Shown one piece after another: positions 5,163-37,890 of a stretch of 64,000 nucleotides of DNA; positions within the stretch are counted from its first letter, which is position 1, and every line of letters begins with the position of its first letter. The notes beneath the pieces were generated by a model. The model searched no databases. It saw nothing but the letters and a program-made list of their open reading frames with translations, and was not told where the DNA came from. Source of the DNA: Paeniglutamicibacter sulfureus (GTDB lineage: Bacteria > Actinomycetota > Actinomycetes > Actinomycetales > Micrococcaceae); the NCBI RefSeq assembly GCF_039535115.1, contig NZ_BAAAWO010000001.1, positions 3,162,001 to 3,226,000 on the forward strand, given 5' to 3'. The translations under genes were made by a program, and so were the position numbers.

Positions 5163-6696
<1,534 letters not shown>

Positions 6697-32474: not shown

Positions 32475-32547
32475 GCGCCTTTAGCTCAGTTGGTAGAGCA
32501 CTGGACTTTTAATCCATTGGTCGCGGGTTCGACCCCCGCAGGGCGCA
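32475..32547 (+). tRNA. tRNA-Lys (anticodon TTT)
   Basis: The 73-nt cloverleaf is complete: acceptor stem GCGCCTT / AGGGCGC (one G-U pair), D-arm AGCTCAGTTGGTAGAGC, anticodon loop CTTTTAA giving anticodon TTT, and T-arm with GGTTCGACC. CCA is not encoded. Its 3' half is repeated 5 kb downstream, which marks it as the integration site of a genomic island. Confidence 0.97.
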
Positions 32548-32551
32548 CAGA
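32505..32551 (+). repeat. attL: 3' half of tRNA-Lys, left border of the island
   Basis: From AATCCATTGG at 32511 to the A at 32551, 37 of 41 bases equal 37540-37580 in direct orientation. Weaker similarity extends back to GACT at the anticodon. Tyrosine-recombinase elements commonly integrate in the 3' half of tRNA genes and duplicate it. Confidence 0.75.
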
Positions 32552-32552
32552 G

Positions 32553-32592
32553 AAGCGGTTCTGACTAGGAGAAATCTAAGTCAGAACCGCTT
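32553..32592 (+). terminator. Terminator after tRNA-Lys
   Basis: A perfect 14-bp stem, AAGCGGTTCTGACT / AGTCAGAACCGCTT, with a 12-nt loop is followed by TTTCTGTTT. Confidence 0.85.
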
Positions 32593-32617
32593 TCTGTTTA
32601 AGTCGTTGCCCCCAAAT

Positions 32618-32827
32618 TCAGGGAAGCCAACGAATTCGATTATCTGGCTGGATCCGGGAGTGCCAGTTGATCTCGGACAATCTTCCTGCTGCCTGCACTT
32701 TCTCAACGACGTCGAGGGCCGAAGTCTCTGAACCGAAGACCCACAAGGCCCGATTCGCTTCGCATTCTTCTAGCTCGCTCAGATAGAAGTATGAGGGGTC
32801 CCAGCCGACCTTGAACTCGCTCGGCAT
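32618..32827 (-). CDS. Hypothetical protein, probably N-terminally broken
   Basis: The 69-codon frame gives a natural-looking sequence (WDPSYFYLSELEECEANRAL, then ALWVFGSETSALDVVEKVQA). Similar quality continues upstream without a start codon for about 20 residues (PVESGPVELSSTFLNG) until a stop at 32894-32896. This suggests that the 5' end was lost, or that a frameshift separates it. I do not recognise the family. It lies just inside the left border of the island. Confidence 0.45.
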   Translation of the reverse strand: MPSEFKVGWDPSYFYLSELEECEANRALWVFGSETSALDVVEKVQAAGRLSEINWHSRIQPDNRIRWLP

Positions 32828-33050
32828 ACCGTTCAAGAACGTGGAGGACAGCTCGACCGGTCCGCTTTCAACAGGTTGCGTCAGTGGTCGTCCTCAACGG
32901 GCGTGCGCTGTTTGTGATGGCAACCGCCTTATTGCCGACATGCCCCGAGGGACCTGGAAGTCCGTCTGTGCTTCCGGCGCTTTGTGGTCCGCGGATGTGT
33001 AGGCTTGGAGCAGTATATTGCTGTTGTGTCCAGGACAGAGAGGCACGTTC

Positions 33051-33782
33051 ATGGCCAGGATTGGGAAGTCGCTCCCGATTGCGGACGAGTTGGCCGCTGC
33101 GGCGGCGGGTGCCGCCGGGTTGCTCATGTCCGAGGCCACCGTGGCCGAAACGCTGAAACTTATCACCGCCGCGGCGAAGTCCAGCGTCCCCTTCGCCATT
33201 GGTGCCGGGGTAACGTTAATGGATGCCAATGCCCGTCCGACCAGTGCTGCCGCCTCGGACGAGGTCGTCGAGCAGGCCGATAGTCTGCAATACGATCTCG
33301 AGCAGGGCCCTTGTCTCTCCGCCTGGGCCACGGGCGAAACGGTGGTGGTCCAGGACATTGCCGCCGACGATCGCTGGCCCGAATGGTCAAGGTTGGTGGC
33401 GCCGCTGGCCGTCGCCGCCTCCATCAGCGTTCCGCTGAAATCCTCCTCCGAGTCCTTTGGCGCGGTGAAAGTCTATGCCGCCGAGCCCCAGGCCTTCACT
33501 GAGCGCTCTCGAGGTGTCCTGGAGCTGCTGGCCCGGCAGGCTTCGGTGTTGCTGGAGCATGCCATCACCGCGGAACAGGCCAAGAAGGTCAGTGACGAGT
33601 TGCGCAGTACCCTGTATTTGCGAGACGTCATTGGCATGGCCAAGGGCATCATCATGGAACGTCATGGCGTTGCCGCCGATGACGCGGTGCGGCTGTTGTT
33701 GAAGCAGGCCATCGCGGAGGGCCGGACCCTGGGCGAGTTTGCTGCCCGGTTAGTCGAGGCCGCCACCCCGCAAGGTGCCTAG
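33051..33782 (+). CDS. GAF-ANTAR protein 1 (RNA-binding antiterminator)
   Basis: The 243-residue protein combines an N-terminal sensory GAF domain (about 20-165, with the family's LEQGPCLSAW motif) and a C-terminal ANTAR domain (about 180-240, with RDVIGMAKGIIMERHGVAAD). ANTAR domains bind paired RNA hairpins and prevent transcription termination; the GAF part usually senses a small ligand or phosphorelay signal. AGAGAGG precedes the ATG at 33051. First of a three-gene run: the next start is 17 nt after its stop. What it senses and which RNA it binds cannot be read from the sequence. Confidence 0.88.
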   Translation: MARIGKSLPIADELAAAAAGAAGLLMSEATVAETLKLITAAAKSSVPFAIGAGVTLMDANARPTSAAASDEVVEQADSLQYDLEQGPCLSAWATGETVVVQDIAADDRWPEWSRLVAPLAVAASISVPLKSSSESFGAVKVYAAEPQAFTERSRGVLELLARQASVLLEHAITAEQAKKVSDELRSTLYLRDVIGMAKGIIMERHGVAADDAVRLLLKQAIAEGRTLGEFAARLVEAATPQGA

Positions 33783-33798
33783 CGACGGGGAACAGGCC

Positions 33799-34074
33799 AT
33801 GGAGATGGATGACGATGATTTGCAGCTGAAGCAGCTGCGCCAGGCGCTGCCGCTTGCGGGCCTGACGGTGGGCGAGTTGTGGCTAAAGTACTTCGGCCTT
33901 GGCGGGTCAGCCGGCCAATTCGAAATCGAGGCTTATCTTTTTGCCGCCCATGCGTTGCCCACGTTGGAGCGCGATCTGGTGGCCCACGCGATCAATGAAC
34001 GCTTCATGGACCTGGACATGGATCTCAGGGTCCCGTACTCCACTGACCAGGACCCGGGAAAGACGGAAACCTAA
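33799..34074 (+). CDS. Small acidic hypothetical protein between two GAF-ANTAR genes
   Basis: The 91-residue protein (MEMDDDDLQLKQLRQALPLA; later FEIEAYLFAAHALPTLERDL) is soluble and strongly acidic. GGGGAAC lies upstream of the ATG at 33799; an ATG at 33775 would overlap the previous gene. Its stop touches the ATG of the next gene (TAAATG), so the three genes form one operon. I recognise no domain. Its fixed place between the two antiterminators suggests a shared task, possibly as partner or modulator. Confidence 0.65.
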   Translation: MEMDDDDLQLKQLRQALPLAGLTVGELWLKYFGLGGSAGQFEIEAYLFAAHALPTLERDLVAHAINERFMDLDMDLRVPYSTDQDPGKTET

Positions 34075-34794
34075 ATGGGCGCCCGAGGCCACGACGCACG
34101 CAACCAAGACGAGCTGCAAGACCTGCTACTTGAGAGCGAGGGCTTCAGCGACTTCATGCTGGAGCTGGTGCTGATTGCCGCGGCGGGGCTGGGCAGCGGC
34201 AAGCCGGTGCTGTGTTCCATCACGGTGGAGCGCGAGGGCTTCCCGCTCACGGTGGCAAGCAGCGAGCTCGATGCCATGGTCCTGGATGAACGCCAGTACG
34301 CCTTTGACAATGGTCCCTGCCTGACCGCGCTGCGGCAGCAGCGCAAGGTCTTCATCCCGGAAATAGACGAGTCGAGGACTTGGCGGGATTATGCGCGGGA
34401 GATCGGCTCCAGCGGAGTGCATGCCATCCTCGCGGTCCCCGTGGAAGCCGGCAGCGGCACCCAGGCCGCGCTGAACTGCTATGCCCGCGAACCCGGAATA
34501 ATGGATTCGGACTTTGTTTCCGCAGTGGAGGCCTTCGCCGGATCGATTTCGCGCATCCTGCGCTTGGCCCTGCGATTCCACCTGCCTGCCCTGGCCGGCG
34601 CTGACCTCGGTTCGGAGCTGCGGGCCCGCGGGCTGGTTGACGGGGCGGTGGCGGTGATCATGGTCCGGGACAAGTGCAGCCGTGCCGAGGCTTTCGCTCA
34701 ATTGAGTCGCTCGGCATTCTCGGCGAACGTGCGCCTCGGCGACCGGGCGATCGAGGTCCTGCGTGAGGCGCGACGCGCCCGGGGGATGGAATAG
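34075..34794 (+). CDS. GAF-ANTAR protein 2 (RNA-binding antiterminator)
   Basis: The 239-residue protein has a GAF domain (about 20-165, with FDNGPCLTALRQQ) and a C-terminal ANTAR-like domain (about 178-235; RGLVDGAVAVIMVRDKCSRA then EAFAQLSRSAF). It is related to protein 1 but clearly divergent: the ANTAR helix carries VDGAVAVIM in place of IGMAKGIIM. It starts directly at the stop codon of the small acidic gene. A terminator hairpin follows at 34804. Confidence 0.85.
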   Translation: MGARGHDARNQDELQDLLLESEGFSDFMLELVLIAAAGLGSGKPVLCSITVEREGFPLTVASSELDAMVLDERQYAFDNGPCLTALRQQRKVFIPEIDESRTWRDYAREIGSSGVHAILAVPVEAGSGTQAALNCYAREPGIMDSDFVSAVEAFAGSISRILRLALRFHLPALAGADLGSELRARGLVDGAVAVIMVRDKCSRAEAFAQLSRSAFSANVRLGDRAIEVLREARRARGME

Positions 34795-34803
34795 TCCTTC
34801 GTC

Positions 34804-34826
34804 CCTTGCCCGGGACCAGGGCAAGG
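34804..34826 (+). terminator. Hairpin after the GAF-ANTAR operon
   Basis: A perfect 8-bp stem, CCTTGCCC / GGGCAAGG, with a 7-nt loop starts 9 nt after the stop codon. There is no T-run. It might also be a target for the encoded antiterminators, but only one hairpin is clear. Confidence 0.5.
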
Positions 34827-35330
34827 TGGCAGGGGCACGAAACCGGGAATTTTCCGGCTCCGTGGCCGGACAACCCCAAAACCTCGTTTTTGAGGGTTCC
34901 GGCCTCGCGGACTTCCTGGAGCAGCTGTGCGGATTCTTCGCCGTGCGGGCGTCGGCCGCGCTGCCGGCCCACCGAATAGGCCAATGCCCTTGGCAACGGG
35001 CTGACCGCTGGCCGGAGTAGGCCGGGGCTCACCGCGGTCCCGCCGTCCGCAGGGGCATGCGGCCCAGGCACAAGGTCCACCCGCCCGCCGGCGCTGTGGC
35101 TCGCCGCGCGTCAGCATGAGCATGCGGATCCGCAGCAGACCTGAGGTCGCGCACCCATCGATTTGGCGTCAACATGGGACGGCGGGTCGTTCCAGGGAAG
35201 AGGCGTTCAAGTTCTCTTCGCGGGCGGCTTCCATCCGCAACCAGAAAGGCGTGGTCCTGGCCACCGGACTCGCGGACACCCTGACCGCGAAACACGACAA
35301 GACCTACTTCGGGCGAGGCCTGGGAGCCGG
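34827..35330. other. No recognisable gene (island interior)
   Basis: About 500 bp in which no frame has both a ribosome-binding site and a known domain. A 72-codon plus-strand frame ends at 35334 (IRNQKGVVLATGLADTLTA is its most protein-like part) but looks like chance or a remnant. Confidence 0.4.
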
Positions 35331-35639
35331 CTAGATGTCGGTGCCGTAGCCCCGCAGCAGGAAGGAGTGTGGCAGCGCGGGCAGGCGGTGGGTGCGGATT
35401 CCCTGGAATTCCTCGCACCGGCCACACCAGCATTCAACGTCCCAGGCCGAGGGCGCGGGCCCATGCGGTGGTACTGGCCTGACCTGTTCAAAGACCAGGT
35501 ACTTGTCGCTGTGGCAGGTTCCGCAACTGATCGGCGGCACGCTCTCCTGCGTCGATGGTGAGACCAAGGTGATTTTGGCGGTGTCCGCGGGTAGCTCGCT
35601 GCGACGTTGCGGGGTGGCGAACAATTGCTGGATGGTCAT
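35331..35639 (-). CDS. Small zinc-ribbon protein
   Basis: The 102-residue protein has CGTCHSDK in the middle and CWCGRC about 30 residues later, two Cys knuckles expected to hold one zinc ion. The flanks are rich in Pro and Arg and show no membrane helix. The ATG at 35639 is preceded by GAGGACAGGG. I do not recognise a family; zinc-ribbon proteins of this size often bind nucleic acid or other proteins. It lies on the opposite strand to the antiterminator genes of the island. Confidence 0.6.
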   Translation of the reverse strand: MTIQQLFATPQRRSELPADTAKITLVSPSTQESVPPISCGTCHSDKYLVFEQVRPVPPHGPAPSAWDVECWCGRCEEFQGIRTHRLPALPHSFLLRGYGTDI

Positions 35640-36049
35640 GAGCCCTGTCCTCGAATTTCCGAATTTCCGATACGCGGATGACGTGCTTCCCGGGGTCTGG
35701 AGAACCACGTGCGGCCGACAAAAACCCCGCCGGCCGATCGATAAATCGATTATGCCCAACACGTATTGCCGAATTCAAGGGGATTTCACCTCGTGCCCCG
35801 CGGTGTCCGGACCCGCCATCCGCCCCGCGGGGTCCCGGGCGTGGCGCGGGCCAGGGGCCGGTGTGGCCCGGGGCTGAAAGCGACGAGGCTGGCGGCGGTC
35901 GGATCCGTGGAGGCTACGGGAGGGCCACGATGCAAACAATCCTTCCCGAGGCGGATAACAAGTGGCACAGTAAAAGGGAAAGGTAGCCGTGGTGCGGGCG
36001 GGCACTTTCGTCGAATGGCTGCGCAGACCCGGAAGTAAGGGGACCAGCG
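35640..36049. other. Intergenic stretch with ATCGAT repeat
   Basis: No gene is visible. ATCGAT-AA-ATCGAT at 35737-35750 is both a direct and an inverted repeat in otherwise very GC-rich DNA. It could be an operator for the zinc-ribbon gene or the third GAF-ANTAR gene. AAGGGGA just before 36050 is the ribosome-binding site of the latter. Confidence 0.45.
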
Positions 36050-36782
36050 ATGGATAGCGACCAACTGACCAGCGTCGGCGAGTACCTCTATGGGAAGGTG
36101 CTGGATACCGAGCAGATTGAGGGGTTTCTCAATGCGCTGACGCACGTGGCGGTGCAGGAACTTTCCGGCGGGGACCCGGGACGGGTGCTGTGCGGGATCA
36201 CGCTGGTGCCGCCACCGCGCGGGCACGGTGGCCAGCAGCAGCCTCGAGGCCCAGGAAGTGGACGAGGTCCAGTACGGCTTGGGCGAGGGGCCGTGCCTCA
36301 CCGCTGCCCGGGACCGGGGCTTGGTCCTGGTCCCGGACTTGCGCGTGGAACATCGCTGGCCGAGGTATGTCGGGCACATGGTATCCCGGGGGATTGGCTC
36401 GGTGCTGGCGGTGCCATTCGATCTACAGGACGGGGACGGCGCCGCATTGAACTTGTATTCGCGCCAGGTCCACGGGTTCGACCCCCGGCAGGTCGAGGCC
36501 GCGCGGGGATATGCGGACCAGGCGTCCACCGCGCTGGCCTTGGCGCTCCAGGTGGCCAGGCACCGGGAGGAAGCTGAACAGTTGCTGGAGGCGATGAAGG
36601 CACGCACCACCATCGACCTGGCTGTGGGAATCGTCATGGGGCAGAACCGGTGCTCGCAGCAGGAGGCCTTCGGCATCCTGCGGGCAGCGTCCAACAGCCG
36701 CAACATCAAGCTGCGCGACGTGGCGGCCGCCGTGGTCGGCTCCGCGACCCCCGAGGCCCCCGCGACCCATTTCGACAGGTAG
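36050..36782 (+). pseudogene. GAF-ANTAR gene 3, frameshifted
   Basis: The gene begins well (ATG at 36050 after AAGGGGA; MDSDQLTSVGEYLYGKVLDT). The GAF sequence runs to VLCGITLV near 36210 and then continues in the +1 frame as TVASSSLEAQEVDEVQYGLG, through GEGPCLTAARDRG and an ANTAR domain (TTIDLAVGIVMGQNRCSQQE) to the stop at 36782. One extra base, or two lost, in the C/G-rich stretch at about 36200-36222 explains this. Repaired, the protein would have about 243 residues, like its two neighbours. It may be a real mutation or a sequencing error in a GC-rich tract. Confidence 0.82.
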
Positions 36783-36821
36783 CCGCCGCCGCACTGCCGC
36801 GGACGGCAGCGATGGCGGGCC

Positions 36822-37028
36822 TCATTCGGATGCTATAGGCTCTGGCCTAGGTCGGCGCGTGCAAGGCGCAGGTGCCGCGGGATGCCGGGCGGCCGCGAGG
36901 AACTCCCGCACGGCGCGGGCAGGAATGCGGAAGGACTTACCGAAGCTCACCGCCGGCAGCTTGCCCTCCTGCACCAGGTCGTACACGGTCATCCTTGGCA
37001 CGCGCATCGCGGCGGCGGCCTCGGCCAC
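36822..37028 (-). CDS. Excisionase-like helix-turn-helix protein
   Basis: The 68-residue protein is a MerR-type HTH of the excisionase family: VPRMTVYDLVQEGKLPAVSF followed by GKSFRIPARAVREFL is the typical core. Such proteins bind DNA and either control excision of integrated elements or act as small regulators. The start is a GTG at 37028; a TAG ten codons upstream limits the frame. It lies about 500 bp inside the right border, where a recombination directionality factor is often found. No integrase gene is next to it. Confidence 0.75.
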   Translation of the reverse strand: MAEAAAAMRVPRMTVYDLVQEGKLPAVSFGKSFRIPARAVREFLAAARHPAAPAPCTRRPRPEPIASE

Positions 37029-37276
37029 CCGCAGGTATTCGGTGTCCCCGGGGGGCTAGTGGCTGGAGCATGTCATCCCCCAATCCATGTAGCCTTCATC
37101 ATCCCCCGGCTGAACGACTGGTCCGGAGGCACCGTTCAGGGGGTCCGCTGGGTTCCCATCGTAGGCGCGGGTTCGGCGGCGCTTCAATGTTTTGCGCACC
37201 CACCCGGCGGGGCATTCTGCACGCCTTGAGCCCTTGAAAATAGGCAGCACATTCCTAGCCCGCCGGATACGGTCGG

Positions 37277-37505
37277 TCACTGGGCAGGGCGGCCAGGTGC
37301 GCCGTCTTCGTTGCCGACCACGGCTACCATCGCGACCTTGCCGAACAGGATCGGTCGGCCTTGGCAGTCGGTCTCTGAGATTTCGGCATCCCTCTCCAGC
37401 ACCCGCTGGGCCAGGCTGGAGGGGTGTCCCACCCAAATCGGGGCGGCCGGCACCAGGATTTGTGCAGCCATGAGCTTGTCCCGGATGGCGGGCGCAGATT
37501 TACAG
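37277..37505 (-). pseudogene. Truncated flavodoxin-fold NAD(P)H-dependent reductase
   Basis: The minus strand encodes AIRDKLMAAQILVPAAPIWV, GHPSSLAQRVLERDAEISE and GKVAMVAVVGNEDGA, the middle section of NADPH-dependent FMN reductase-like proteins. The FMN-binding N-terminus and the C-terminal third are missing. It reaches almost to the right border of the island, so insertion or later deletion probably cut it. Confidence 0.65.
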
Positions 37506-37532
37506 TGGCGGTCGCGGACTGCTACAAATGTC

Positions 37533-37580
37533 GACTACTAATCCATTGGCCGGGGGGTCGACCCCCGCGGGGCGCACAGA
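37533..37580 (+). repeat. attR: degenerate copy of the tRNA-Lys 3' half
   Basis: 37540-37580 equals 32511-32551 in 37 of 41 bases, same orientation. The four changes disturb the T-arm, and no 5' half exists, so it is not a tRNA gene. It marks the right border of a 5-kb island. A hairpin follows at 37585-37612 (ATCCCCG / CGGGGAT) that could be the original terminator of tRNA-Lys. Confidence 0.75.
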
Positions 37581-37612
37581 ACTACCTATCCCCGCTCTCC
37601 TCGTGAGGACGG

Positions 37613-37890
37613 GGATCATCTGTTTCCTGGTTCCCCGATCCATGGTGAGCCGCAGCAACAATCTTCACCTGGCCTGCCGTCGAACGGTTTGCCGGAGCGC
37701 AGCCACTGGGATGGCATTCGCAGAAGCGGTGGATGTTGCGCAGGACACATTGGTGCGGTTATGGTTGCATCGTCAGGCGGAACGTTTCTGAAGTTCCTGC
37801 CGTCGCTCTAAAAATGGGCGAAATCCGGGTTCGCTGCCCGAAGACGAATATGGCCTTAGTTCTTTTTGCTGCATTCGAAAGTCACAAAAA
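37613..37890 (+). other. Gene-free stretch with a possible sigma-factor-like remnant
   Basis: A frame ending at 37791 contains AFAEAVDVAQDTLVRLW, which resembles region 2 of sigma factors, but it is too short and has no partner sequence. The DNA just before the next gene is AT-rich. Confidence 0.3.

Follow-up and report, generated by a model that had tools for sequence, protein, structure and literature searches.

A probable genomic island in tRNA-Lys(TTT) of Paeniglutamicibacter sulfureus with two attachment cores and no recognisable recombinase gene

Genomic islands in tRNA genes can be recognised by their ends. In the Islander description (PMC4383910), a regenerated tRNA gene and a displaced 3' fragment mark the two ends of an island. 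Elements that retain both attachment (att) sites, attL and attR, and have lost their integration gene are known as cis-mobilizable elements (CIMEs; PMC5704250). Here we describe a 5-kb stretch behind tRNA-Lys(TTT) of P. sulfureus, which an original prediction made from the letters alone had read as a genomic island with a degenerate attR. It lies in a window of 64 kb, the whole stretch of DNA analysed (positions 3162001-3226000 of a one-contig genome of 4.57 Mb). As in Islander islands, a complete tRNA gene and a same-strand fragment stand at the two ends, and the repeat begins with the anticodon arm, like those of the anticodon-centred 'A' class; unlike these islands, it has no integrase gene, for which the Islander search looks (PMC4383910). 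It resembles a CIME in that attL and attR are retained (42/48 identical, attR being degenerate) and no integrase was found; this likeness would be one of structure, a CIME proper descending from an integrative and conjugative or integrative and mobilisable element and being mobilised by one (PMC5704250). The kind of island is well known and its mechanism textbook; its presumed terminator hairpin, called type B below, recurs in three congeners. Judged by titles and abstract openings, the literature searched on Paeniglutamicibacter genomic islands had nothing on this locus, and searches for Arthrobacter tRNA-Lys integrase genomic islands and for GAF-ANTAR in Arthrobacter found none.

The 3' half of the tRNA gene (32511-32551) had been noted to recur at 37540-37580 with 37 of 41 bases equal, which we confirm; the repeat is longer, comprising 48 nt in the same orientation (32504-32551 and 37533-37580) with 42 identical positions. 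The best other 48-mer outside tRNA genes, on both strands of the window, reaches 26/48. Genome-wide, the second copy has an E value of 1.8e-10, and its local-alignment score of 36 compares with a maximum of 15 in 100 shuffles. The attR of a second strain of the species, As4PL, differs from that of the window, as would be expected if it were under little constraint. The 3' half of the present tRNA-Lys(TTT) gene is supplied by the island.

We compared the locus with 14 other Paeniglutamicibacter genomes (G001-G014), all of which have tRNA-Lys. They include P. antarcticus (G001), P. gangotriensis (G003), P. psychrophenolicus (G006), P. quisquiliarum (G007), three 'Arthrobacter sp.' strains (G008, G009 and G010), a metagenome-assembled genome (G012) and As4PL (G013). 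In 10 of the 14 (G001-G010), tRNA-Lys is followed without a gap by the counterpart of 37581-37627, the alignments running from 37533 to 37614-37630 at 74-81% identity. This is the predicted empty site, in the Islander sense of a tRNA gene joined to the outer flank. The island itself is shared only by As4PL, with the same borders, 97-99% identity and one length difference of ~83 bp near 36788; it is not a segment common to all relatives. In the remaining three (G011, G012 and G014), tRNA-Lys is followed by a hairpin like the one after the window's attL (type B). No second att copy was detected in G011 and G014, nor, by eye, a type A hairpin (the type of the empty sites) just before the next conserved gene; the contig of G012 stops ~250 bp past the hairpin, too short to judge. 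The local-alignment test on 12 congeners (G012 and G013 left aside) gave scores of 8-14, none above its own shuffle maximum. In G002 and G003, aligned DNA before the next conserved gene is reached within ~110 and ~370 bp; of the other congeners, the ten that lack the island and whose interval is complete have genes there, named by eye as a PadR/ABC operon, a HelD-like ATPase and a PadR/membrane-protein pair, so that the interval is variable beyond the island itself.

The two junctions each carry a hairpin. The island-side hairpin (32547-32605) has a predicted fold of -32.3 kcal/mol (z = -8.2), and its outer stem consists of ACAGA from the att core and TCTGT from the island. The displaced hairpin has a predicted fold of -17.7 (z = -2.5), with the ACAGA and TCTGT letters present but unpaired; by eye, both motifs stand at the hairpin feet in six of the ten empty sites. 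We infer that the att core extends into the terminator stem, so that either flank is able to complete a terminator. The island appears, from its sequence, to have carried in its own tRNA-Lys terminator, an addition to the original prediction. The type B hairpins of G011, G014 and G012 may be scars of earlier elements or independent changes of the terminator.

The cargo has a colinear counterpart in P. gangotriensis (G003), where a cluster matches the island over 32973-37209 with gaps, in pieces 77-87% identical. A trio of genes (GAF-ANTAR 1, a 91-aa gene and GAF-ANTAR 2) shows synonymous divergence (dS) from G003 of 0.38, 0.36 and 0.40, with ratios to non-synonymous divergence (dN/dS) of ~0.16-0.19, whereas three flanking genes give dS values of 0.95, 0.68 and 0.70. 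The lower dS of the trio argues that the cargo was acquired horizontally. Based on three genes per side, the cargo seems to derive from a P. gangotriensis-like lineage or from a donor common to both. By the same flanks, the genome nearest to the window is P. quisquiliarum, whose scored matches lack the trio (20 of 128 candidates scored; 20 first-look candidates were scored per genome). The G003 cluster was considered as plasmid-borne, but its contig holds ffh, amtB, ftsY, smc and rnc (by eye) and so looks chromosomal. Plasmids were rejected as a source of the island, the matches being scattered and short, with no more than 5% query coverage apiece among the 40 of 82 plasmid matches listed, as were phages, three of which match in the tRNA part only.

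Elements at the same target occur elsewhere in the family. A scan of 395 family genomes with a tRNA-Lys half pattern matched 151; its finds are a lower bound, as 244 genomes gave no match and the pattern misses the window's own degenerate attR. Two same-strand half copies on one contig were seen in G309, G160 and G129. G309 and G160 belong to one genus other than Paeniglutamicibacter and hold elements of 15.4 and 8.8 kb, respectively, in which tRNA-Lys(TTT) is followed by a convergent tyrosine integrase gene (390 or 394 aa) and an XRE-type helix-turn-helix (HTH) gene. They share with the window island the target tRNA-Lys(TTT) and a corresponding core, as exact repeats of 47 nt in G309 and 70 nt in G160, the latter reaching into the hairpin region after the tRNA; no tRNA 5' half accompanies the distal copy. 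They differ from it in their integrase and XRE-type genes, their other cargo and their intact att copies. Thus, of the related elements that the original prediction proposed to look for, corresponding att cores with intact tyrosine integrases were found, but not the same cargo between intact att sites. The two integrases are 46% identical, and relatives of that of G160 occur in 60 of 390 genomes (E <= 1e-40), the window genome not among them. In G266, of a third genus, such a relative adjoins tRNA-Lys. In 19 further loci from related genera, each compared with 20 shuffles over as much as 16 kb (~8 kb in L096), no downstream second copy scored above shuffles, with one marginal exception (L113, 16 against a shuffle maximum of 15); L100 equalled its maximum.

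That no integrase is left, as had been claimed, is borne out: neither the integrase domain PF00589 nor the resolvase domain PF00239 has a match within the 64-kb window at E <= 1. The genome has five PF00589 and six PF00239 matches, and the PF00589 match nearest to the window is a broken gene 140 kb off. Two genes of the genome were rejected as integrase relatives: a 487-aa frame at 778.6 kb, which shares 25-28% identity with two of three family integrases over partial length, and the broken gene, at 3.054 Mb, for which no match appeared at 1e-3.

We hold it very probable that a genomic island was placed in tRNA-Lys(TTT) by site-specific recombination and now has no recognisable recombinase gene, and the genomic-island reading of the original prediction is supported in substance. 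In the P. sulfureus lineage, a circular element would have recombined its core with a matching chromosomal attachment site (attB), which spans the 3' half of tRNA-Lys(TTT) from the anticodon arm to slightly beyond the end of the gene. The incoming core would have rebuilt the tRNA 3' half, the element would have supplied a terminator hairpin of its own, and the original 3' half and terminator would have been shifted 5.03 kb downstream, where the 3' half was free to decay as attR. By analogy with the kind still present at tRNA-Lys(TTT) in other genera, a tyrosine integrase is the likeliest recombinase; its gene may later have been deleted, or it may have acted in trans. The presumably immobile remnant would be CIME-like and retain horizontally acquired GAF-ANTAR regulator genes. 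With old and new terminator hairpins, a decaying attR and empty sites in ten congeners, the case is well bracketed, and the dS of the cargo can serve as a clock for the transfer between species. It would allow one to ask how expression of a tRNA persists once its terminator has been exchanged for that of an element, and by what route regulator clusters travel when no integrase is resident.

Several observations weigh against this explanation. The type B hairpin also follows tRNA-Lys in G011, G014 and G012, and its presence in three congeners without a detected attR means that the left end may not be specific to the element. The cargo, too, is mosaic, with parts that match several separate places in relatives. 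An element combining this cargo with an integrase was not found in the genomes searched, and in the absence of any recombinase remnant the class of the recombinase is a guess by analogy. As4PL does hold a relative of the G160 integrase, yet ~498 kb from its tRNA-Lys, and in G266 no attR was found within ~37 kb despite the integrase. The congener hairpins would suit an entry without integrase, with homologous recombination in the tRNA at the left end, illegitimate joining at the right end and a type B donor such as the G011/G014/G012 group, where the hairpin stands straight after tRNA-Lys and no attR was detected. Such an entry gives no reason to expect that a partial tRNA copy beginning with the anticodon arm should lie precisely at the right junction, nor that this copy should start nearly where those of integrase-bearing elements do; past the 50-bp hairpin, moreover, the left end of the island shares nothing detectable with the G011/G014/G012 loci. 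We consider it very unlikely. Less credible still, to the point of being hardly tenable, is that tRNA-Lys was duplicated in tandem, that the second copy decayed and that unrelated DNA separates the two. The second copy does resemble the tRNA 3' half, but the 29 nt upstream match the 5' half at 6 positions, and the lack of a 5' half argues against a decayed tandem tRNA, which the original prediction had named as the alternative. In every one of the 14 congener loci (5.7-19.9 kb), ARAGORN calls just one tRNA-Lys(TTT), the repeat extends beyond the tRNA end, and what follows the second copy is the counterpart of the tRNA terminator in ten congeners.

Insertion by a large serine recombinase instead of a tyrosine integrase is a further, quite unlikely, alternative. 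In its favour, the 3' end of a serine recombinase gene of G202 contains the 3' half of tRNA-Lys, and frames similar by eye exist in G202 and G129; in G129 the second half copy falls within an open frame that looks, by eye, like the C-terminus of a serine recombinase and has no Pfam match. A 48-nt core suits the tyrosine type, as the 47 nt beside the tyrosine integrase of G309 illustrate, but the att copies of G202 are also long, so that core length is not decisive. A broader scenario extends to the whole genus, and we regard it as unlikely: the island would be one trace of an element family that repeatedly visits tRNA-Lys in Paeniglutamicibacter. As the ACAGA at the end of the core also forms the 5' base of the terminator stem, each visit would swap the tRNA 3' half together with the terminator, the type B hairpins of G011, G014 and G012 would be scars of past visits from which all else has been lost, and integrases acting in trans would move a chromosomal GAF-ANTAR cluster between species.

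Table 1. Features of the tRNA-Lys(TTT) locus, in window coordinates.
Feature	Position	Strand	Basis or remark
tRNA-Lys(TTT) gene, target site	32475..32547	+	ARAGORN end 32548
attL core, anticodon arm to 4 nt past tRNA end	32504..32551	+	42/48 identical to 37533-37580
Island-borne type B hairpin, presumed tRNA-Lys terminator	32552..32601	+	z = -8.2; same type in G011, G014, G012
Open frame, 91 codons (72 aa from TTG start), no known family	32621..32893	-	only P. sulfureus
GAF-ANTAR protein 1, intact (listed open reading frame start 33018)	33048..33782	+	Pfam; dN 0.059, dS 0.38 vs P. gangotriensis
91-aa conserved protein, no known family, between GAF-ANTAR genes 1 and 2	33799..34074	+	
GAF-ANTAR protein 2, intact	34075..34794	+	Pfam
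143-aa protein with CxxC pairs, zinc-ribbon-like by eye	35331..35762	-	no Pfam match; DNA homologues in congeners
GAF-ANTAR gene 3, disrupted frame	36050..36782	+	frame open in As4PL
HTH_17 small DNA-binding protein	36822..37028	-	Pfam PF12728
NAD(P)H-dependent oxidoreductase-type gene fragment	37277..37471	-	DNA match to annotated oxidoreductases
attR, displaced original tRNA-Lys 3' half, decaying	37533..37580	+	repeat match; differs in As4PL
Original type A tRNA-Lys terminator hairpin, displaced by island	37581..37627	+	counterpart directly 3' of tRNA-Lys in 10/14 congeners

The cargo had been described as antiterminators, a zinc ribbon, an excisionase-like HTH protein and a truncated reductase. 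This holds for two intact GAF-ANTAR genes, the CxxC protein, an HTH gene and the reductase fragment; the third GAF-ANTAR gene is disrupted, through either recent loss or a sequencing error. ANTAR domains bind RNA and act in antitermination; the GAF-ANTAR proteins of the island are predicted to be regulators of this RNA-binding type. The 91-aa gene is kept alongside GAF-ANTAR genes in four congener clusters, besides As4PL, and its product (scanned as a 99-aa frame) has no Pfam or PHROG match; it is possibly a functional partner of the GAF-ANTAR proteins. The HTH_17 gene matches PHROG excisionase-type families. Its paralogues in the window genome, at 1.51 and 1.38 Mb, both lie ~600 kb or more from any PF00589 match, one of them 68 kb from a resolvase-type gene; given this distance, it is probably an ordinary regulator and unlikely to be an excisionase. 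The reductase fragment has no Pfam match, takes its name from annotated plasmid matches and also matches position 862634 of the same genome at the DNA level. At the left end, the 72-aa frame matches in 2 of 290 family genomes, none outside P. sulfureus, with no plasmid, Pfam or PHROG match, and the 371 bp at 32602-32972 have no match outside P. sulfureus among the compared loci. No transfer-gene family appeared among those island open reading frames that went through a general Pfam scan, which included no search aimed at relaxases.

Among the other recombinases, the large serine recombinase gene of G202 (L127:6478-8226) contains the tRNA-Lys 3' half (6529-6576) antisense in its 3' coding end. 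The C-terminus of the protein carries GPAGLEPATSGL, and the att site of the recombinase apparently belongs to the gene itself; a literature search linking GLEPATSGL with tRNA found nothing. Frames similar by eye only lie at L126:118-903 and L121:4697-5560, that of L121 without a Pfam match. Five loci of genus g13 (L163-L167, from G228, G236, G171, G252 and G289) hold tRNA-Lys 3' halves with no tRNA called within 8-10 kb, and the best match to the full tRNA-Lys in these genomes is weak; the halves are possible attR sites of large islands. In strain MYb227 (G009), two tRNA-Lys(CTT) genes stand ~5.3 kb apart on the same strand (L050, G009:C23:99000-112000).

The GAF-ANTAR clusters of G008 (L074) and G011 (L075) and nearby stretches are 79-94% identical, the cluster itself 89%. 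A tRNA-Arg beside the G008 cluster was dismissed: the call, 92 nt long, is apparently spurious, and L074 holds no detected copy of more than 15 nt. Around tRNA-Lys, the tRNA stretch aside, the DNA of G008 and G011 is 75-82% identical. The likeness of the two clusters points to more interspecies transfer of the same neighbourhood.

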